From an uncultured Pelagibacteraceae bacterium (GTDB lineage Bacteria; Pseudomonadota; Alphaproteobacteria; Pelagibacterales; Pelagibacteraceae): 33,022 bases of DNA. The translations under genes and the position numbers were made by a program. The stretch lies in assembly GCA_902572155.1 (NCBI GenBank), contig CACGET010000003.1, positions 1 through 33,022 on the forward strand, read 5' to 3'. The notes beneath the pieces are model-generated. The model saw only the letters and a program-made list of their open reading frames with translations. It was not told the origin of the DNA and ran no database searches. Of the stretch, positions 6,468-15,847 are shown one piece after another. Position 1 is the stretch's first letter; every line of letters starts with the position of its first letter.

Positions 6468-7571
6468 TTAAAGAACGTATGGTTCTGGTCTAGCTTTTTC
6501 ACCTAATACTCTCTCTACTGCCATATTACTTATATCAATAGATTGATATGAGCCAGTTGTAATCAATTCTGTTAAGGCTCTACCAATGCCAGGAGCCTGC
6601 ATTAAACCTCTACCTGTAAAACCTGTTGCTAAATAAACATTTTCAAATTTTGGATGTTTTCCGACAACTGCATTGTTGTCCAGTCTATTACAATCATAAT
6701 AACCAGCCCAACCTCCTGTTAATTTTAATTCTTCAAATGCAGGTATTCTCTGTGCAAGAGCAGGCCAAACTAATTCTTCAAAATCATCCCATGCTGGCTC
6801 TAGATCTTCAGCTCCAAAAACAGATTTTGGTGATCCAGCTAAATATTCTTTACCTTCAGGTCTCCAATAAACACCTGTGGTTAGATCTCCAGTCAAAGGC
6901 ATTTCTGGAATATGTTTAGGGCATTTTACTCTAAAAACTGTATGTTTTTGTGGTTCAACTGGAATATCCTCTAGCAATTCTTTTGTCCAACATCCTGCAG
7001 CAGATATGATTGTTTTAGCTTTAATTTCTGAAAGACTTTTAACCTCACCTTTTATAAACACTGCACCAAGTTCTATTGCTTTACTTTTTAAAGCGCTATG
7101 AAATAAAAAAGGATCTATCCATCCTTCACTTTTGTTATCAGTAAAAGTTGCTGTTTCAATACCTTCATTATTTATATATGGAAAAAATTTTGAAAGTTCA
7201 GATCCTTTAATATTTTTTGTACCAGCATCACATGCTTTATGATTTTCTAATGCCTCATATTGTTCTTCAGCATGCTCAGAGCCAAACATCAATAAATATC
7301 CATTTGGAACCATGCTAGCTGTAGGATTAGGATTCTTCTCTGTTTTTAATAATTCTGGAATTTGAAAAATAAATTCTCTTGCAAACTTTCCTAATAAAAT
7401 ATTTTCTTTTTGATAAAATTGTCTTCTAAAACCACCTAATGAAAGAGGAAAAGATGCAGTTTTATATGTGGGGTCTCTCTCTATAACTTTTACTTTTCTA
7501 CCTTCTTTTGAGAGAAAGTATGCTGAAGCTGCACCAATTATACCACCGCCAATTATTACAACATCATCCAT
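6468..7571 (-). CDS. FAD-dependent oxidoreductase, DAO (D-amino acid/sarcosine oxidase-like) family
   Basis: The N-terminus DDVVIIGGGIIGAASAYFLSKEG is a classic Rossmann FAD site (GxGxxG). The C-terminal block VYLATGFTGRGLMQAPGIGRAL is the second FAD-contacting segment of DAO proteins. The family oxidises C-N bonds of small amino acids or N-methyl amines; the substrate cannot be read here. The ORF track starts at 7625, but its first 18 residues lie inside the upstream TspO gene and look non-conserved. The ATG at 7571, 2 bases after the TspO stop, puts the FAD motif at residue 2 as is usual, so I chose it (367 aa). It is the second gene of a TspO-DAO pair. Possible roles include dimethylglycine/sarcosine-type catabolism, but nothing nearby confirms this. 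Confidence 0.85.
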   Translation of the reverse strand: MDDVVIIGGGIIGAASAYFLSKEGRKVKVIERDPTYKTASFPLSLGGFRRQFYQKENILLGKFAREFIFQIPELLKTEKNPNPTASMVPNGYLLMFGSEHAEEQYEALENHKACDAGTKNIKGSELSKFFPYINNEGIETATFTDNKSEGWIDPFLFHSALKSKAIELGAVFIKGEVKSLSEIKAKTIISAAGCWTKELLEDIPVEPQKHTVFRVKCPKHIPEMPLTGDLTTGVYWRPEGKEYLAGSPKSVFGAEDLEPAWDDFEELVWPALAQRIPAFEELKLTGGWAGYYDCNRLDNNAVVGKHPKFENVYLATGFTGRGLMQAPGIGRALTELITTGSYQSIDISNMAVERVLGEKARPEPYVL

Positions 7572-7573
7572 AA

Positions 7574-8041
7574 CTAATTTAAATAATATATACTTAAATT
7601 GAGCACTAGTGCAAAGCAGCTCCAAAGTAAATAGGGAATCATCAAATATGAACTAATTAAATTGACACGTTTAAAATTTTTAATGAGAATAATTATCATA
7701 ATAATAAGAGCAATTAAAACTAAGACTGAAATTAAGATTTTATGAAATACGAAAAATGTAATACTCCAAGTTGTATTAATTATTATATGAATAAAATAGA
7801 TATATATTGTTTTCATGTCTCTGTTTTTACTGTGCCAAAATAACCAAATAGCTATCGTCATCATTAAATAAAGAGTTGTCCAAACTGGAGCAAAAATCCA
7901 ATCTGGTGGACTAAACGATGGTCTAATTATTGATGAATACCAAGGTTCTTTAAAATTGACTGTGGCCATTCCACCAATTAAAGAAGCTGAAAAAGTGATG
8001 ATTAAAAAAAGTATAAATGTTAAAAATTTATTTTTAAGCAT
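7574..8041 (-). CDS. tspO: TspO/MBR family tryptophan-rich membrane protein
   Basis: This is a small polytopic membrane protein with about five predicted transmembrane helices. It shows the TspO signature: PWYSSIIRPSFSPPDWIFAPVWTTLYLMMTIAIWLFW, including the Pro- and Trp-rich loop before helix 2. TspO proteins bind porphyrins or cholesterol-like ligands and affect tetrapyrrole handling and oxidative or light stress responses in alphaproteobacteria such as Rhodobacter. The ORF track begins at 8062 (MLMYIII...), but the internal ATG at 8041 gives a conventional N-terminus (MLKNKFLTF) and a less cramped junction with the divergent SDR gene. The start is therefore uncertain by 7 codons. It is followed 2 bases later by the DAO flavoprotein. 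Confidence 0.9.
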   Translation of the reverse strand: MLKNKFLTFILFLIITFSASLIGGMATVNFKEPWYSSIIRPSFSPPDWIFAPVWTTLYLMMTIAIWLFWHSKNRDMKTIYIYFIHIIINTTWSITFFVFHKILISVLVLIALIIMIIILIKNFKRVNLISSYLMIPYLLWSCFALVLNLSIYYLN

Positions 8042-8065
8042 AATAATAATATACATTAACATAAG

Positions 8066-8827
8066 ATGAATAATAAAACTATTTGGATCACTGGTGGTAG
8101 CACCGGTATAGGTAAAGCCCTAGCAATAAAGTTTGCTAACAACGGATGGAATGTTGCAATTTCAGCAAGAAGAGAAAATCTTTTAAATGAATTATCTGAT
8201 AAATATGAAAATATAACTTCTTTTCCACTTGATGTTACTGATAAAATAAAATGTGCAGAAGTTTTTACTCAAATTAAAAATAAATTTCAGGAAATAGATA
8301 TATGTTTTTTTTCAACTGGAACATGGAATCCAAAAAAAGAAAAAGATATCGACGTTGATCAAATTGAAGATGTTTTTAAAATAAACTTTTTTGGAACTTT
8401 AAATTCTATTAAGGCAGTTGAACAATATTATAGAGATAGAAAAAAAGGTATTATTACAATAGTTTCTTCAATTGCGGGCTACAGAGGATTACCTAATTCT
8501 ACAGGTTATGGTCCTTCAAAATCGGCATTGAATAACTTAGCTGAGAGCTTGTATTTTGATTTCAAGCGCTCAAATGTGAGAGTTTGCTTAGTTTCTCCAG
8601 GTTTTATAAAGACACCTATGACAGATAAAAATGATTTTAAAATGCCATTTTTAAAATCACCTGAATATGCTGCAGATAAAATTTATGATGGTTTAATTAA
8701 TAAAAAAATATTTGAAATTCATTTTCCTAAAGAACTGACACTTACATTGAAACTTTTAAGTTTTTTACCAAGTAAAGTATACTTTTATTTAATTGGAAGA
8801 CTCACAAAATATCAAAAAAAAAATTAG
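8066..8827 (+). CDS. Short-chain dehydrogenase/reductase (SDR)
   Basis: This is a classical SDR of 253 aa. The cofactor site is TGGSTGIG near residue 9, followed by SARRE, which favours NADP(H) through the Arg after the second strand. The catalytic residues are in IVSSIAGYRGLPNSTGYGPSKSALNN (Ser, then YxxxK). The C-terminus is more basic and hydrophobic than usual and may touch the membrane. The gene is divergent from tspO and convergent with the DUF3833 gene, with which it overlaps by 4 bases. An SDR of this sort commonly accompanies the FAD/DUF1365/CFA/DUF3833 set in other proteobacteria (from memory), so a role in the same lipid-modification system is a reasonable inference. Its substrate is unknown. 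Confidence 0.9.
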   Translation: MNNKTIWITGGSTGIGKALAIKFANNGWNVAISARRENLLNELSDKYENITSFPLDVTDKIKCAEVFTQIKNKFQEIDICFFSTGTWNPKKEKDIDVDQIEDVFKINFFGTLNSIKAVEQYYRDRKKGIITIVSSIAGYRGLPNSTGYGPSKSALNNLAESLYFDFKRSNVRVCLVSPGFIKTPMTDKNDFKMPFLKSPEYAADKIYDGLINKKIFEIHFPKELTLTLKLLSFLPSKVYFYLIGRLTKYQKKN

Positions 8828-9369
8828 TCTTTAACAAAAACAACTGTTAACTCAGCAACTTTAAATCCAAATTTTGTCATAGTAGCTCTATTTATTGCTA
8901 CTTTTTCATCTTGTTTAAATATCCAATCATCAAATGTTATTTTCATCTCTTTACCTTTAACTGGAACTAATAAAACATATTCAAATTTAAAAGCTGGCCC
9001 GTAAGAATAACCTTTTGCTTTACCAACAACATCTCCAGCTGTTCCTTCATAATTGTTTTCATCTATTTTATTAATTATCCATTCTCTATTTTGAATTTCA
9101 CCATCATCCCAATTGAACTTTTCTTTTAAAATCAGCTGCTTACCATTCCAAGTTCCGTTTAAATTTGCAGAAAATTGTCTTGTAACTTTACCAGACCTAT
9201 TTTGTAGTACACCCCAAGCCTTAACATTACCTGTTAAATACTCTTCTATGATTAATCTTGGTTTTTTATCTTTAAAATCTTCTGGATTCATTTTATTATT
9301 TGAACAGTTTGTAAATAAGAAAAGTATTATAATCAATGAAATTGATTTAAAATATTTTATATAGCGCAT
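8824..9369 (-). CDS. DUF3833 family lipoprotein
   Basis: The protein has 181 aa with a lipoprotein signal: a basic N-terminus, a hydrophobic stretch SLIIILFLF and a lipobox-like TNC at about residue 22. Ser and Asn follow the Cys, suggesting lipidation and export across the inner membrane. The body matches the DUF3833 pattern as I recall it: an N-terminal PRLIIEEYLTGNVKAWGVLQNRSGKV segment and later WDDGEIQNREW and GDVVGKAKGYSYGPAF. Biochemical function is not known. It is the last gene of the FAD-DUF1365-CFA run, 20 bases after the methyltransferase, a context seen in many proteobacteria. It could be a periplasmic lipid-handling partner, which is inference. Confidence 0.85.
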   Translation of the reverse strand: MRYIKYFKSISLIIILFLFTNCSNNKMNPEDFKDKKPRLIIEEYLTGNVKAWGVLQNRSGKVTRQFSANLNGTWNGKQLILKEKFNWDDGEIQNREWIINKIDENNYEGTAGDVVGKAKGYSYGPAFKFEYVLLVPVKGKEMKITFDDWIFKQDEKVAINRATMTKFGFKVAELTVVFVKD

Positions 9370-9389
9370 ACTTATCTCCTTTTAATCTA

Positions 9390-10568
9390 CTATTTATTTT
9401 GAAGAGAAAACTGAATAAGATCAATGTTTTTTGATTTAAATCCTGCTTCACAATAGGAAAGATAAAACTCCCACATTCTTTTAAAAGTATTATCAAATCC
9501 TTGACTCTTAATTAAATCCCATTTCTTATTAAATTCATGTCTCCAAATAGCTAGTGTGTTAGCATAGTGATCTGCATAAGAGATATAGGAATTTATAGTC
9601 AATCCATTAGCGGATACATGTTTGTTGATGCTATTTTTGTTTGGGAGAAATCCACCTGGAAAAATATATTTTTGAATGAAATCCTCTTTATTTTTATATC
9701 TGTCAAAAAGACTATCATCAATAGTAATAGCTTGAATTGCTGCTTTACCATCAGTGGATAAATTACTTTTTATTGTGTTAAAATAACTTTCTAAATAATT
9801 TTGACCAACTGCTTCAATCATTTCAATTGAGGCTATGGAGTTATATTTTCCTTTTAAATCTCGGTAATCCTTTATCTCTATATTAACTTTTTCATTTAAA
9901 CCACATTTGTGAATTCTCTCTTTAGTATAATCAAATTGTTTTTTTGAAATAGTAATACAATCAAGTTTAACATCATATTTCTTTCCTAAATATTCAGCAA
10001 AACCTCCCCAGCCACATCCAATTTCTAAAACTTTGTCTCCATTATTTGGGCGAATTAAATCTATCAACTTTTGATATTTATTATTTTGTGCATCAGACAA
10101 ATCTTTTTTTTGGTCATCAAATATTGCACTTGAGTATGTCAAAGTATCATCCAGCCAGAGTGAAAAAAATTCATTTCCCAAATCATAATGCTTCGCAATA
10201 TTTTTCTTGCTTCGTTCTTTAGTATTTTTAATTATCTTGTTTTTTACATAATTGAGTATTGGTATATCGAGTGCGCCTGCAAATTTATGAATTATCTTAA
10301 TATTTCTTGCAGTTATTTCTATTAAATTTGAAAGATTATCGGTCTCAAATTCATTTCTCATGTAAGATTCTGCTAGTCCAACACTCCCCGTTCTAATTAA
10401 GTTATATGTAAAGTTAGGATTTTGTATTTTTAATTTAACTTTTAAATTTTCATTTAAATTACCAAAACTTAATATTTTTCCATCAAAAGTAGTAATTTCT
10501 AAATATCCATAATCAATTTTTTTTAATATGTTAAATACTAATTTATCTGTAGCTTTATATAAAAACAT
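9390..10568 (-). CDS. CFA-synthase-like SAM-dependent fatty-acyl-phospholipid methyltransferase
   Basis: The 392-aa length and architecture match cyclopropane-fatty-acid synthases: an N-terminal lipid-binding domain (about 1-110), then a class I methyltransferase domain with SAM motif VLEIGCGWGGFAEYLG (180-195) and the typical C-terminus FKRMWEFYLSYCEAGF. Family members add a methyl or methylene from SAM to double bonds in membrane phospholipid acyl chains. By my alignment, E. coli Cfa bicarbonate ligands Cys139, Glu239 and His266 correspond to Ser147 (TYSSA), Glu252 (MIEAVG) and Gln279 (AIQAIT). Only Glu is retained, so a product other than a plain cyclopropane is plausible, for example a methylated or methyl-furan-precursor chain. 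The start ATG overlaps the DUF1365 stop by one base. Confidence 0.9.
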   Translation of the reverse strand: MFLYKATDKLVFNILKKIDYGYLEITTFDGKILSFGNLNENLKVKLKIQNPNFTYNLIRTGSVGLAESYMRNEFETDNLSNLIEITARNIKIIHKFAGALDIPILNYVKNKIIKNTKERSKKNIAKHYDLGNEFFSLWLDDTLTYSSAIFDDQKKDLSDAQNNKYQKLIDLIRPNNGDKVLEIGCGWGGFAEYLGKKYDVKLDCITISKKQFDYTKERIHKCGLNEKVNIEIKDYRDLKGKYNSIASIEMIEAVGQNYLESYFNTIKSNLSTDGKAAIQAITIDDSLFDRYKNKEDFIQKYIFPGGFLPNKNSINKHVSANGLTINSYISYADHYANTLAIWRHEFNKKWDLIKSQGFDNTFKRMWEFYLSYCEAGFKSKNIDLIQFSLQNK

Positions 10569-11338
10569 TAATTTTCAATTGTTGTATTATTCTTTAATTT
10601 CAATTTTTTTTTTATGAATTTAATTCCTTTACTCCATAATTTAAACGCTTCAAAATGTATCGCTATAATAATTTTAAAAGTCATTAATGGGTGTTTAATA
10701 TAAGATTTTAGCAACTCACTGCTTTTTAAATCTGCTATATAACCATCTTGAGATGCATATAACAATTTATCATCATTATTATCATATTGATCTATAACAA
10801 CTGACATTTTTTTATCTGGTAATAGTGTTCTGAAAAAATATTTACAGTCCATTTCAATAAATGGTGATACATGAAATTTTTTTAAGCAATTATGTTGTAA
10901 GAGTTTATCGGTATTATTGATTTTAAAAATATATGTATGTTGTTCTCCAAAAGTATTTTTAACTTCATAAAAAATTGCAATCAGTTTATCTTGATTATTG
11001 TATACATAAAAAACACTTAACGGATTAAATACATATCCAAAAATTCTAGGGTAGCATAAAAGTTTAATCTTAACATTTTCAGAACTTATGCTGTTTTGAT
11101 TTAAATTTTTTTTAACCCAATTTATTATAGAAGTTCCATCTCTATTGCCATGATCTTTGTCATAAAAACTTATGAGGTTTATTTTATTATATGAAAAAAA
11201 TCGCACTTGTTTATCTAAATAATCAAGTTCAGATAAATCAATCAACAATGAAAATACACTATATTTGAAAAAATGTTCTTTAGGTTTAAATCTCTTATGA
11301 ATTACTGTTCCATTATATATATTTGAATTAATCATCAA
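10568..11338 (-). CDS. DUF1365 family protein
   Basis: The protein has 256 aa. It shows the DUF1365 pattern: an N-terminal YNGTVIHKRFKPKEHFFKYSVFSLLIDLSEL, a DKDHGNRDG segment, then the hallmark YPRIFGYVFNPLSVFYVYN and a later block FHVSPFIEMDCKYFF. The molecular role is unestablished. The family is nearly always found between a flavin amine-oxidase-like protein and a CFA-like methyltransferase, as it is here. It overlaps the FAD gene by 11 bases and the methyltransferase by one, so the three are very probably co-translated. There is no signal peptide and no clear transmembrane helix, so it is probably cytoplasmic or peripheral. A part in the same acyl-chain modification is inferred from this fixed neighbourhood. 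Confidence 0.88.
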   Translation of the reverse strand: MMINSNIYNGTVIHKRFKPKEHFFKYSVFSLLIDLSELDYLDKQVRFFSYNKINLISFYDKDHGNRDGTSIINWVKKNLNQNSISSENVKIKLLCYPRIFGYVFNPLSVFYVYNNQDKLIAIFYEVKNTFGEQHTYIFKINNTDKLLQHNCLKKFHVSPFIEMDCKYFFRTLLPDKKMSVVIDQYDNNDDKLLYASQDGYIADLKSSELLKSYIKHPLMTFKIIIAIHFEAFKLWSKGIKFIKKKLKLKNNTTIEN

Positions 11339-12566
11339 GATATTTGAGCATTTCTATAGAAGATTTTATTCCATCTTCGTGAAATCCATAACCAAAATAA
11401 CTACCGCAAAATAATATATCTTTTTGATTTTGCAATTTTGATAGCATTATTTGACTATTTAATGCAGTTTTATCAAAATAAGGATGGGTAAATTTTACTT
11501 CTTTTAAAATTTTAGTTTTATCAATCTCAAAATAAGGATTTAAAGTTAAAAAAATATTTTCATTACAATTTAAATTTTGCAATAAATTTAGCCAATAAGT
11601 AATTGAATTTTTTGCACTATCTTTATTATCTATTGACGAATTCCAAGAACACCAATTTTTTTTATTTTTTGGCATTGCTCTTTTATCTGTATGTATTATG
11701 GCTATATTTTCCCTATAACTAAAATTTGATAAAATCTCATTTTCCTCAACCGTAGGATTATCTATTAAAGAAAGAGCCTCATCTGCATGAGTGGCTAAAA
11801 CAATTTTATCATAATTAAAGAACTCATTTTCACCTCCATAATATAAATCTATGCCTGATAGCTTTCTTTTTATTTTAGTGATTTTATAATTTTTGAAATA
11901 TTCTCCACTTACCTTAGAAATAACTTTATTTACATAACTTCTACTTCTATTTGAAACAGTATACCACTGTGGTCTGTTTTTTAATTTAAATAATCCATGA
12001 TTTTGAAAAAATTTAAAAAAAAATTTTATAGGCATTTTACTTGCTTCTACTGGAGGCATCGACCAAATTGCTGAAACCATAGGTATTAAATGATAATTTA
12101 TAAATGTTGAAGATAGCCTGTTATGTCTAAGATATTCACCCAATGTATAGTTTTCATCTTTAATATTGATTTTATCACTTTTTTTATAAAACTTTATAAT
12201 ATCAAAAAACATTTGTATAAATTTTAAATTTAAAATATTTGATTTATTAGAAAAAATTCCTCTAATGCCATTTCCACAATATTCAAAATTAGTATTGTCG
12301 ACTGAAACTGAAAAGGACATATTGCTTTTTTCTATGTCTACATCGTTTTCTTTGAAAAATTTTATTAAATTTGGATATGTTTGAAAATTAAATACTATAA
12401 ATCCAATATCAACTGAAACCTTTTTACCATTCAAAATTAGATCTAGTGTGTGAGAATGTCCTCCAAAATGATCCTCTCTTTCATATAAGTCTACGTGATG
12501 TTTTTTTGATAAATAATAGGCAGCACTTAGCCCAGATATACCTGAACCGATAATTGCAATTTTCAT
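11328..12566 (-). CDS. FAD-dependent amine-oxidase-like protein (lipid-cluster type)
   Basis: The 412-aa protein starts with KIAIIGSGISGLSAAYYLSKKHHVDLYEREDHFGGHSHT, an FAD-binding Rossmann motif followed by the GGH(S/T)HT variant typical of flavoproteins found beside DUF1365 and CFA genes. The C-terminal ILFCGSYFGYGFHEDGIKSSIEMLKYL is the second FAD segment of the amine oxidase/phytoene desaturase superfamily. In Rhodobacter, related proteins near rpoE-chrR belong to the singlet-oxygen regulon (recalled, not searched). A desaturase- or oxidase-type step on an acyl chain fits the context, but no substrate can be read from the sequence. It follows the EamA transporter with a one-base TAATG overlap and overlaps DUF1365 by 11 bases. 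Confidence 0.88.
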   Translation of the reverse strand: MKIAIIGSGISGLSAAYYLSKKHHVDLYEREDHFGGHSHTLDLILNGKKVSVDIGFIVFNFQTYPNLIKFFKENDVDIEKSNMSFSVSVDNTNFEYCGNGIRGIFSNKSNILNLKFIQMFFDIIKFYKKSDKINIKDENYTLGEYLRHNRLSSTFINYHLIPMVSAIWSMPPVEASKMPIKFFFKFFQNHGLFKLKNRPQWYTVSNRSRSYVNKVISKVSGEYFKNYKITKIKRKLSGIDLYYGGENEFFNYDKIVLATHADEALSLIDNPTVEENEILSNFSYRENIAIIHTDKRAMPKNKKNWCSWNSSIDNKDSAKNSITYWLNLLQNLNCNENIFLTLNPYFEIDKTKILKEVKFTHPYFDKTALNSQIMLSKLQNQKDILFCGSYFGYGFHEDGIKSSIEMLKYLDD

Positions 12567-13435
12567 TAACTATTATGCCTTAATTTTATTAAAGAATAAA
12601 ATTGCAATAATACCGCAAAAAGAATAATTGCACCTCCTATTAAACCAAACATTGATGGTCTTTCACTAACAAATAAAAAGGCCCAAAGTGGGCCTAAAAC
12701 TGACTCTGACAACATTATAATTCCAACCATTGCGGAGGGGGTTGTTCTTGCCCCTATTGTTATAAATATAAATCCAAAACCAACTTGAAAGAATCCTGCT
12801 AAAAATCCTAAAAAAATATCATGAGAAGAAATCATAATTTTTGTTGATAATAAATATCCAATTATACAGGAGCAGACTCCTGCTACTAATTGAGCAGGAA
12901 CCATATCAACATTTGGAAACTTCCTAACGATGATAATCAGTACTGCAAACGTTATGGGCATAGAAAAAGCTGCTAAATTTCCTGACAATTCTCCAGGTGT
13001 TAAGGAATTTCCAACCATTAAAAAGACTCCTGACATAGCCAAAATAATTGAGGCTAATGTTATGGCTGAAATCTTTTCTTTTAAAAAAAAATATCCAAAT
13101 ATTGCTAAAAATAATATTTGTAGAGAGATAATAAAATTTGTATTTGCAACTGTTGTATTGTACATCGCAAATACATACCCGCAGAAACCAAACGACAATA
13201 CTATTCCACCAATTAATCCAGGTAATCCAGATTTGTAAAAAGCTTTAAAAGTATCTTTTTTATATGTTAAAATTAAAAAAGTTAGAACTGTAAGTGAGAA
13301 AAAAATTGATCTCCAAAACAAAATTTGCCACAAGGTTGCCCCCTCAAATGATTTAACTATCAAGCCTCCAAAACTTAAACTTAAAGCTCCTAAGAAGATT
13401 AAAAGCGGACCGGGTAATTTAACAATAAAGTTCAT
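12566..13435 (-). CDS. EamA/DMT family permease
   Basis: This inner-membrane transporter of 289 aa has about ten predicted transmembrane helices in two EamA halves. The first half ends near LQILFLAIFGYFFLKEKISAITLASIILAMSGVFLM and the second near IIMLSESVLGPLWAFLFVSERPSMFGLIGGAIILFAVLL. Both carry the typical (F/S)xxE(R/K) segment before the last helix of the half. DMT permeases export or import metabolites such as amino acids and nucleosides; the substrate cannot be told. The ATG overlaps the end of pxpC by 4 bases (ATGA), coupling it to 5-oxoprolinase, so 5-oxoproline, glutamate or a related compound is a possible substrate. The same run continues into the lipid genes, so an alternative is a link to those. 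Confidence 0.88.
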   Translation of the reverse strand: MNFIVKLPGPLLIFLGALSLSFGGLIVKSFEGATLWQILFWRSIFFSLTVLTFLILTYKKDTFKAFYKSGLPGLIGGIVLSFGFCGYVFAMYNTTVANTNFIISLQILFLAIFGYFFLKEKISAITLASIILAMSGVFLMVGNSLTPGELSGNLAAFSMPITFAVLIIIVRKFPNVDMVPAQLVAGVCSCIIGYLLSTKIMISSHDIFLGFLAGFFQVGFGFIFITIGARTTPSAMVGIIMLSESVLGPLWAFLFVSERPSMFGLIGGAIILFAVLLQFYSLIKLRHNS

Positions 13436-14379
13436 TTAATTTGAGAAATAATGTTTTTTGTTTCCATTTGATATAAGTCGTATAGGGTTTCTGCTTCAGG
13501 TAAATCTATTTCTTGAAATTTTATTTTTGATCCAGATGTTAATTGTACAAGCTTGTCATAATCAGCACTTATCACAACACCTATCTTAGGATACCCGCCA
13601 ATTGTCCCATGATCTGAAAGCATAATAATTGGATTTCCATCTGAAGGTACCTGCACCACTCCTTTTATTAAACCTTCAGATTTAATATTTGTATTAACAA
13701 TATTATCAATTTTATGACCTTCTAATCTCATTCCCATCCTGTCTGATAACTTTGAGATGGTAAAAGATTTATTGAAAAATGCATTTATTCCCTCTTTTGA
13801 AAAATAATCATAATTAGTTCCCTTAATAACTCTAATTTTTTCGATCTTTGTGTTGATATGCTTTAACTCTTTAGTTGATTTTAAAGAGATTATTTTTGAA
13901 ATTATTATTTTTTGCCCGTCAGATATTTTTTCTCCATTATTAGAACCAAGTTGTGCCTTAGTATTGGTTGAACAACTTCCCCACTGATATTTCAAATCAA
14001 ATTCACCACTTATTGCTAAATAACCATAGACAGATTTATTTGTAGACAGGATATCAATTTCATCCCCATCCTTAATCAAGTAACTTTTATTACAACTTCC
14101 TTGAGTTTCCACCATATCTCTTTTAATTTTGAAAATAACATCTCCAGTTATTGCAATATTAATATTTTCACCATGATATTTAAATAATGGTCCTTGATAG
14201 GCAAACTCTATGACTGGTGAACTTAAATCATTTTCTAGTAAACTATTAGCTATTAAGTAATTTCTACCATCCATCGCTCCACTTAATGGGATTCCGATAT
14301 GATGTAAATTACTCCTACCCTTATCTTGAAAAGTGGTATTAATACCTGCTCGAAATACTTCAAAATAATTTTTAATCAT
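13432..14379 (-). CDS. pxpC: 5-oxoprolinase subunit PxpC (biotin-dependent carboxyltransferase-like, KipA family)
   Basis: With PxpA and PxpB it forms the ATP-dependent prokaryotic 5-oxoprolinase that opens 5-oxoproline (pyroglutamate) to glutamate. Family features: TTFQDKGRSNLHHIGIPLSGAMDGRNYLIAN near the N-terminus, a middle block ELKHINTKIEKIRVIKGTNYDYF, then SDRMGMRLEG and SDHGTIGGYPKIGVVISAD. The length of 315 aa fits. Its ATG overlaps the pxpB stop region by 8 bases and its own stop overlaps the EamA permease by 4. It could be called an allophanate-hydrolase subunit 2-like protein by older pipelines, but the presence of pxpA and pxpB alongside settles the function. Confidence 0.92.
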   Translation of the reverse strand: MIKNYFEVFRAGINTTFQDKGRSNLHHIGIPLSGAMDGRNYLIANSLLENDLSSPVIEFAYQGPLFKYHGENINIAITGDVIFKIKRDMVETQGSCNKSYLIKDGDEIDILSTNKSVYGYLAISGEFDLKYQWGSCSTNTKAQLGSNNGEKISDGQKIIISKIISLKSTKELKHINTKIEKIRVIKGTNYDYFSKEGINAFFNKSFTISKLSDRMGMRLEGHKIDNIVNTNIKSEGLIKGVVQVPSDGNPIIMLSDHGTIGGYPKIGVVISADYDKLVQLTSGSKIKFQEIDLPEAETLYDLYQMETKNIISQIK

Positions 14380-15046
14380 TAAAATTTTTATATTGATTTA
14401 TATCTATTCTTTTAAAAAAAATTGAATCTCCAGGACTAATTAAATTAGGATTTGTCTCATTTGATTTGTCAAATACACTAATAGGTGTATTCCCAATTAT
14501 GTTCCATCCACCCGGACTTTCAAAAGTGTAGATATTTGCAAATTGTTCTGTTATACCCACTGATCCTTTAGGAACTCTCACTCTAGGAGTTTCTAGTCTT
14601 TTTGCTTGTAGGTCATTATCCAGATCACCAAGAAATGGCATTCCTGCAATAAAACCTGTCATATAACAAAAATATTCTTTATTAAAAAAACTATCTAAAA
14701 TTTTATTTCTATTTAAATTTAATTTTTTTTCTAGTCTTTCAATATCTAGTGAAAACTTTTCATTACAACATACTGGAATTTCAATTTTTTTTGATGATAA
14801 GTTTTCATTAGGATCTAGAGAAATATTTTCAATTATCTTTTTTATTTTATTAAAATTCGTTTTTGTTAAATCTAAAGAAATTATCAATTTATTATAAGAA
14901 GGTGTAAGATTGATGATGCCTTGAATATTTTGATTTCTAATACTTTGAAAATATCTGATTACTTTCGAATTTATCTCTTTATTAACACTATTGCCAAAAT
15001 CACAATATAAAGCCGCATCTCCAAGATTGGATATATTTTTTATCAT
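14372..15046 (-). CDS. pxpB: 5-oxoprolinase subunit PxpB (KipI family)
   Basis: The 224-aa protein shows the PxpB/KipI C-terminal signature YMTGFIAGMPFLGDLDNDLQAKRLETPRVRVPKGSVGITEQFANIYTFESPGGWNIIGNTP (shown by its order of conserved blocks). The N-terminus (SNLGDAALYCDFGN) is also typical. It is the first gene of the - strand run that includes pxpC, the permease and the lipid genes. It starts 27 bases from the divergent pxpA start at 15074, so the two arms of the 5-oxoprolinase locus may share one compact control region, unlike the usual single pxpABC operon. B. subtilis KipI also inhibits a sporulation kinase, a role not relevant here. Confidence 0.92.
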   Translation of the reverse strand: MIKNISNLGDAALYCDFGNSVNKEINSKVIRYFQSIRNQNIQGIINLTPSYNKLIISLDLTKTNFNKIKKIIENISLDPNENLSSKKIEIPVCCNEKFSLDIERLEKKLNLNRNKILDSFFNKEYFCYMTGFIAGMPFLGDLDNDLQAKRLETPRVRVPKGSVGITEQFANIYTFESPGGWNIIGNTPISVFDKSNETNPNLISPGDSIFFKRIDINQYKNFND

Positions 15047-15073
15047 GCCATGTTATACTTAACTATTATAACT

Positions 15074-15847
15074 ATGGAAATTAATATAAATTGTGATTTA
15101 GGAGAAAAATCTAAGCTTCACTCGAATAAGCATGATCCTGATTTATTGAAGATTGTAAATTCCGCAAATGTTGCTTGTGGTTTTCATGCTGGAGATGAGG
15201 ATACGATGAATCAGGTTATTCAAATATCTAAAGATAATGGTGTTAGCATAGGAGCACATCCTTCATTTAATGATCCAGAAAATTTTGGTAGATCAAGAAT
15301 TAATTTATCTTCCTCTGAAATAAGGAAATTAATTGTTGAACAATATGAAACTTTACAAAATATTGCAGTAAAATATAATGAAAACGTAAGTCATATTAAA
15401 CCACATGGTGCATTAAATAACATGGCTTGTGAAGATATTGAGCTAGCTAATATTTTAGCTAAAACCATAAAAGAAATTAGCAAAGATATGATTTATCTAG
15501 TTCCAACAGGATCTAAAATGGAAGAAGCTGCAAAAAAACTTAATATGAAGATAGCCTGTGAAATATTTGCTGATCGAAATTATGAAGATGACGGAAATTT
15601 AGTTTCTAGAAAAAAATCGAATGCTTTGATTACAGATCCTAAAAAAGCTAAAGAACATGTGTTAAGTATGGTTAAGAATCAGTCACTTAATTGTCACAGT
15701 GGAAAACAGATACCTTGTGAAATTGACTCGGTGTGCATACATGGAGATAACGTAAGTGCATTAGCTACAGCTAGTTCTATAAAAGAAGATCTTAAAGCTA
15801 ATGGACTTTTATTAAAACCTTTAAACTTTATGGAGAAATTTATTTAA
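15074..15847 (+). CDS. pxpA: 5-oxoprolinase subunit PxpA (LamB/YcsF family)
   Basis: The family N-terminus is INCDLGE followed by NVACGFHAGDEDTM and VSIGAHPSFNDPENFGR; later KPHGALNNMA and the C-terminal VCIHGDN block are present. These Asp/His residues form the metal-dependent TIM-barrel-like catalytic site of the subunit. The ORF track starts at 15050, but the ATG at 15074 places MEININCDLGE at the normal N-terminus and leaves 27 bases to pxpB, so I prefer it (257 aa). No Shine-Dalgarno is visible in front of it. The TAA overlaps the next gene's ATG by one base. Divergent placement relative to pxpB-pxpC is uncommon. Confidence 0.93.
   Translation: MEININCDLGEKSKLHSNKHDPDLLKIVNSANVACGFHAGDEDTMNQVIQISKDNGVSIGAHPSFNDPENFGRSRINLSSSEIRKLIVEQYETLQNIAVKYNENVSHIKPHGALNNMACEDIELANILAKTIKEISKDMIYLVPTGSKMEEAAKKLNMKIACEIFADRNYEDDGNLVSRKKSNALITDPKKAKEHVLSMVKNQSLNCHSGKQIPCEIDSVCIHGDNVSALATASSIKEDLKANGLLLKPLNFMEKFI

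Follow-up and report, generated by a model that had tools for sequence, protein, structure and literature searches.

A probable furan fatty acid operon in a small-genome Pelagibacteraceae lineage in which ChrR and ECF sigma factors were not found

Five genes for putative lipid-modifying proteins lie together at positions 8066-12566 of the window, the whole 33,022-nucleotide stretch analysed here from an uncultured Pelagibacteraceae bacterium, and raise the question of which lipid they make and how their expression is controlled in a small genome. A first-pass annotation of the locus suggested chemistry beyond cyclopropanation, for example a methylated or furan-type acyl chain, and a furan-type product is supported by the clade of the methyltransferase and by the presence of the gene families of the furan fatty acid pathway. 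The five-gene set is very probably a furan fatty acid operon, consisting of UfaD, UfaO and UfaM together with a DUF3833 protein and an opposed short-chain dehydrogenase/reductase (SDR).

The pathway itself is already known, and the interesting part is the missing regulator. In Rhodobacter sphaeroides, phospholipid-bound cis-vaccenate is methylated by UfaM, the methylated product is desaturated by UfaD, and the DUF1365 protein UfaO forms the furan ring with oxygen from O2 (Lemke and others, PMC7380195). The three genes suffice for furan formation, with 11Me-12t-18:1, 11Me-10t,12t-18:2 and 9M5-FuFA as pathway products, and the pathway and its reactions were proven in R. sphaeroides and Rhodopseudomonas palustris (PMC7380195). 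Expression of ufaM from Halomonas, where the three ufa genes are consecutive, yields an 11-methyl-12-ene in E. coli (PMC12089945).

Layout of the locus and its genomic setting

The open reading frames and Pfam identities of the five-gene set were confirmed. Four genes lie on the minus strand, in the order ufaD-like FAD-dependent acyl desaturase (11328-12566; 412 aa; NAD_binding_8/Amino_oxidase, PF01593, E = 4e-11), ufaO-like DUF1365 protein (10568-11338, first ATG at 11335; 256 aa; PF07103, E = 8e-76), ufaM-like SAM methyltransferase of the CMAS family (9390-10568; 392 aa; PF02353, E = 3e-83), and DUF3833 protein (8824-9369; 181 aa; PF12915, E = 9e-60). The SDR gene (8066-8827; 253 aa; PF00106, E = 3e-42) lies on the plus strand and is convergent with the operon. 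By open reading frame coordinates, the FAD and DUF1365 genes overlap by 11 nt and the DUF1365 and CMAS genes share 1 nt, while the CMAS and DUF3833 genes are 20 nt apart, so that the earlier description of four overlapping minus-strand genes holds for the first three only. The DUF3833 and SDR genes converge with a 4-nt overlap.

An EamA transporter gene (12566-13435, minus strand) lies directly upstream of the ufaD-like gene, its stop codon sharing bases with the ufaD start (TAATG), and is probably co-transcribed with the ufa genes while lying outside the pathway. The EamA, CT_A_B and CT_C_D genes upstream overlap as well, so that positions 15046 to 8824 form one tightly packed run. A LamB_YcsF gene is divergent from the CT_A_B and CT_C_D genes (13432-15847 in all, with 3 bp between the starts), and the three constitute a PxpABC-like split 5-oxoprolinase set that precedes EamA and ufaD. 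On the other side of the operon, a possible associate is a TspO/MBR protein (7574-8062, minus strand; PF03073, E = 2e-38), downstream of which lies a DAO-family oxidoreductase (6468-7625), whose called TTG start overlaps the TspO gene and whose homologous start is an ATG near 7571. The G+C content of the window is 29%, and the source genome comprises 0.84 Mb at 69% completeness, complete genomes of the same genus being 1.2-1.34 Mb in size.

The methyltransferase and its relation to UfaM and cyclopropane synthase

The phylogenetic comparison with UfaM that the annotation had called for was carried out with a CMAS tree of 71 proteins, in which the Cereibacter UfaM was recognised by its adjacent photolyase. 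The window methyltransferase is placed in the UfaM clade together with Cereibacter UfaM and operon-linked alphaproteobacterial genes (SH-aLRT 100, on a long branch), and falls outside the clade of cyclopropane fatty acid (CFA) synthases, in which the same tree places a second CMAS protein encoded elsewhere in complete genomes of the genus (SH-aLRT 98). The window protein shares 38-41% identity with rhodobacterial UfaM in a 379-residue comparison, and 32-35% with proteins of the CFA type. The idea that it is the sole CMAS protein of such size in the genus was rejected, as the complete relatives hold two, in different clades; the source genome, 69% complete, gave one strong CMAS match. In another genome (G190, locus L229, 3843-5112), ufaD-ufaO is followed by two CMAS genes in tandem, one of which is very divergent (branch length 2.4) and carries an E239 to Q change.

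Residues were numbered by an E. coli Cfa sequence that was also used as outgroup, its letters at positions 139, 239, 266 and 317 agreeing with the published residues. In the window protein C139 is replaced by S (S147 of the window protein; YSSA instead of YSCA) and H266 by Q (Q279). Q266 is present in every operon-linked UfaM-type sequence examined, and position 139 is S or A in nearly all of them, with a few C or G, while all correctly read CFA-type sequences contain both C139 and H266. Among the CFA bicarbonate ligands E239, H266 and Y317, the window protein retains E and Y and has Q in place of H266, one of the three catalytic bicarbonate ligands in CFA synthase (PMC11387697).

These observations bear on the alternative that the methyltransferase is an ordinary cyclopropane synthase, whose neighbours modify or protect cyclopropane lipids. 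The strong match to the Pfam CMAS family, the matches to NCBIfam CFA models, and the solved CFA synthases that are its best matches in the PDB speak for such an enzyme, but the NCBIfam score of 262 is below the curated cut-offs of 400 and 600, and the placement apart from the genus's own CFA-type protein, along with the loss of H266 and C139, makes this alternative very improbable. By its clade and residues, the ‘CFA-like’ methyltransferase of the window is a UfaM-like protein, and not a predicted cyclopropane synthase. The C139/H266 change would make the adjacent carbon of the chain, in place of the newly added methyl group, the site of deprotonation, which would produce a methyl branch and a moved double bond, with no ring. 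Together, the changes of C139 to S/A and of H266 to Q provide a simple means of discriminating UfaM from CFA synthase, two enzymes that are given like names by annotation pipelines.

UfaD, UfaO, the accessory genes and their conservation

For sequence comparisons, Cereibacter johrii, a close relative of R. sphaeroides (ChrR 96% identical), was used as a stand-in for R. sphaeroides 2.4.1 and, together with gene order, for R. palustris. The window UfaD has 32% identity to C. johrii UfaD (at the position of RSP1091) and 34-45% to other alphaproteobacterial homologs, and the window UfaO has 29% identity to C. johrii UfaO. The FAD-motif residues G7, G9, G12 and E29 are retained in the window UfaD, as are the family-invariant residues of UfaD and UfaO. 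Across 78 loci, H14, R16, Y136, K153, S158 and P159 of UfaO are invariant, and H134 and H228 are 94-96% conserved. As in the furan pathway, an FAD-binding UfaD adjoins a DUF1365 UfaO, and by similarity and operon context the two are best read as a UfaD-like enzyme and a member of the UfaO family. The annotation had regarded DUF1365 and DUF3833 as lacking an assigned reaction, which stands for DUF3833, while the reaction of DUF1365, as UfaO, was shown in 2020 (PMC7380195). Structure prediction of the window DUF1365 protein gave a pLDDT of 86 for the best of five models (63-75 for the other four), with weak nitrobindin-like barrel matches alone (TM about 0.3 by query length), too weak to claim a haem.

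With an identity of only 29-32% between the window UfaD and UfaO and their Cereibacter counterparts, the chain length, position or final product could differ. The same low identity to characterised-type UfaD and UfaO favours a partial or shifted pathway, ending in a methylated mono- or diene, or in a furan that is placed differently or carried by a different chain. This possibility is unlikely, though less so than a cyclopropane product, given that UfaO is present in all 16 loci read from the genus, retains the family-invariant residues and has a dN/dS of 0.12-0.20. A complete furan pathway is the preferred reading.

The accessory genes are less directly tied to the chemistry. RSP1089, RSP1088 and RSP1087 can each be deleted in R. 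sphaeroides without effect on the furan (PMC7380195), and since the homologs of DUF3833 and the SDR are individually dispensable for furan there, both are regarded as accessory and not as core chemistry. The DUF3833 protein starts with a charged N-terminus and a hydrophobic segment that ends in the marginal lipobox FTNC. Its AlphaFold model (pLDDT 87) contains a signal or anchor helix and a ten-stranded lipocalin-like barrel, for which the best PDB matches found by Foldseek are mostly calycin-type barrels, several of them lipid- or pigment-binding, suggesting that it is probably a lipid-binding barrel accessory. The SDR would be an NAD(P)-dependent redox accessory. A small gene between DUF3833 and SDR, NTF2-like by eye, is present in three loci inspected and missing in the window. 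TspO, a porphyrin-binding membrane protein, is encoded beside the ufa set in 12 of the 16 genus loci; in one further alphaproteobacterium (locus L185) its gene lies between chrR and ufaD. In three loci (L094, at 13173-15030; L102; L110), a photolyase-related DPRP gene and a DCC1-like thiol oxidoreductase gene replace the missing TspO.

The co-occurrence analysis suggested for the five genes was also carried out. The arrangement UfaD-UfaO-UfaM-DUF3833 with an opposed SDR is kept in all 16 same-genus loci, and dN/dS values against same-genus genomes are 0.04-0.20 across the five genes, indicating purifying selection. Among 79 loci across the class Alphaproteobacteria, chosen for their better UfaD scores, UfaD is directly followed by UfaO in 71 and the full UfaD-UfaO-UfaM order is present in 60 (by gene midpoints); contig ends and the limits of BLAST detection make both counts minima. 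The grouping of the genes is therefore no accident. In the same 79 loci, genes near ufaD include DUF3833 (41), SDR (48, on the opposite strand in 41), RpoE/ChrR (33) and photolyase (28). UfaD-like genes, a minority of them weak matches, were detected in 158 of 289 genomes of the class, many of which are 1.0-1.5 Mb in size, so their retention in small genomes recurs.

EamA and ufaD are separated in 11 of the 16 genus loci by a block of roughly 4.5 kb, or 5.5 kb in two of these, and in one of them (L091, 3495-8043) it consists, by sequence, of gcvT-gcvH-gcvP; the block is missing in the window and in five loci, where the ufa genes consequently adjoin EamA. In the family's other genus (L093, 7381-8784), a DNA photolyase gene overlaps the ufaD start in the order photolyase-ufaD-ufaO-ufaM, and DUF3833 and SDR were not detected at that locus.

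Regulation, role and comparison with known systems

The sigmaE-ChrR regulon in Rhodobacter, to which the annotation had linked this gene set, does involve a related operon, as rpoE-chrR adjoins RSP1091-1087. The window itself contains no rpoE-chrR pair, as the annotation had observed. It had concluded that control must differ or be distant; control is not merely distant, since complete relatives lack ChrR and every ECF sigma factor. ChrR was sought in 10 genomes of the order, 9 of which are at least 90% complete, with no TIGR02451 match, and a search for the ChrR cupin also found none. No ECF sigma factor was found in complete relatives, which contain at most two sigma factors per genome, of about 610 aa and about 300 aa, lengths that fit RpoD and RpoH. 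Their sole MerR protein is short, and thus would not be a long B12-binding light regulator. No intergenic gap in the ufa operon is big enough to hold a separate promoter, and a scan for consensus promoters gave 45 sites against 55 expected, which is chance level. The absence of ChrR and ECF sigma factors, together with an overlapping run that lacks promoter room, suggests that the pathway is uncoupled from the usual singlet-oxygen sensor, and that its expression is probably constitutive or directed by the general or heat-shock sigma factor.

Turnover of ChrR in R. sphaeroides depends on the furan synthesis genes (PMC6852236), a role that cannot apply in this lineage. The signalling role of the R. 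sphaeroides homologs (PMC6852236), and the TspO gene adjoining the ufa set, would fit a lipid that acts chiefly as a signal here too, through a different sensor, but complete relatives lack ChrR, an ECF sigma factor and a long MerR regulator, and such a role is considered improbable. Uncoupling from the singlet-oxygen sensor instead favours a direct membrane-antioxidant role. Of the 10 genomes, 9, including the source genome, carry a rhodopsin gene, which would fit a sunlit membrane containing photosensitisers.

In the proposed mechanism, UfaM would methylate the unsaturated acyl chain of a phospholipid (the Rhodobacter substrate is cis-vaccenate, methylated at C11 with the double bond moved to C12), the FAD enzyme UfaD would desaturate the methylated chain to a conjugated diene, and the DUF1365 protein UfaO would close a methylated furan ring by inserting a single oxygen atom derived from O2. 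Singlet oxygen would consume the resulting furan chain, which would thereby protect the membrane of a sunlit, rhodopsin-bearing cell. The sequence analysis itself establishes the gene identities, the clade, the residues, the gene order and the absence of the regulator; the three reactions are taken from papers on the homologs, and the product in this organism, the antioxidant role, the mode of expression and the accessory roles are inferred. In Rhodobacter, furan fatty acids serve two functions that are not easily disentangled, scavenging of singlet oxygen and switching on the sigmaE-ChrR response, and ufa genes under purifying selection in a lineage without ChrR or ECF sigma factors offer a natural separation of the two. 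Their retention suggests that the lipid has a value of its own, and leads to the prediction that bacteria with a small genome and a rhodopsin contain furan lipids.

The locus may be compared with several known systems. E. coli Cfa shares with the window methyltransferase its fold family, use of SAM and a phospholipid acyl substrate, but belongs to a separate clade, and its C139/H266 correspond to S/Q in the window protein. A predicted operon of Aeromonas salmonicida (cfa-SDR-FAD-DUF1365-NTF2-DUF2878; PMC10012899) has the FAD, DUF1365, SDR and CFA-like families in common with the window, but is gammaproteobacterial, reported only as riboflavin-responsive, and contains additional DUF2878 and NTF2-like genes (PMC10012899). 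R. sphaeroides RSP1091-1087 includes UfaD, UfaO, a DUF3833-type protein (RSP1088) and an SDR (RSP1087) in the same order. Its middle gene RSP1089 encodes an MFS/GPH sugar/cation symporter, and is accordingly rejected as the match of the window methyltransferase; the earlier placement of a CFA-like gene within the Rhodobacter set was mistaken, the R. sphaeroides ufaM (RSP2144) adjoining phrA, away from the operon (PMC7074977). The C. johrii rpoE-chrR locus likewise has the order UfaD-UfaO-MFS-DUF3833-SDR with no CMAS gene, its UfaM-type gene being located elsewhere and adjoining a photolyase gene. By contrast, in the window UfaM lies inside the operon in place of the symporter, the SDR gene is inverted, and a search of the genus gave no rpoE-chrR. 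The core of the set also resembles R. palustris RPA2571-2570-2569 (ufaD-ufaO-ufaM) and the ufa genes of Halomonas sp. YLGW01, in which three core genes of the same families are consecutive.
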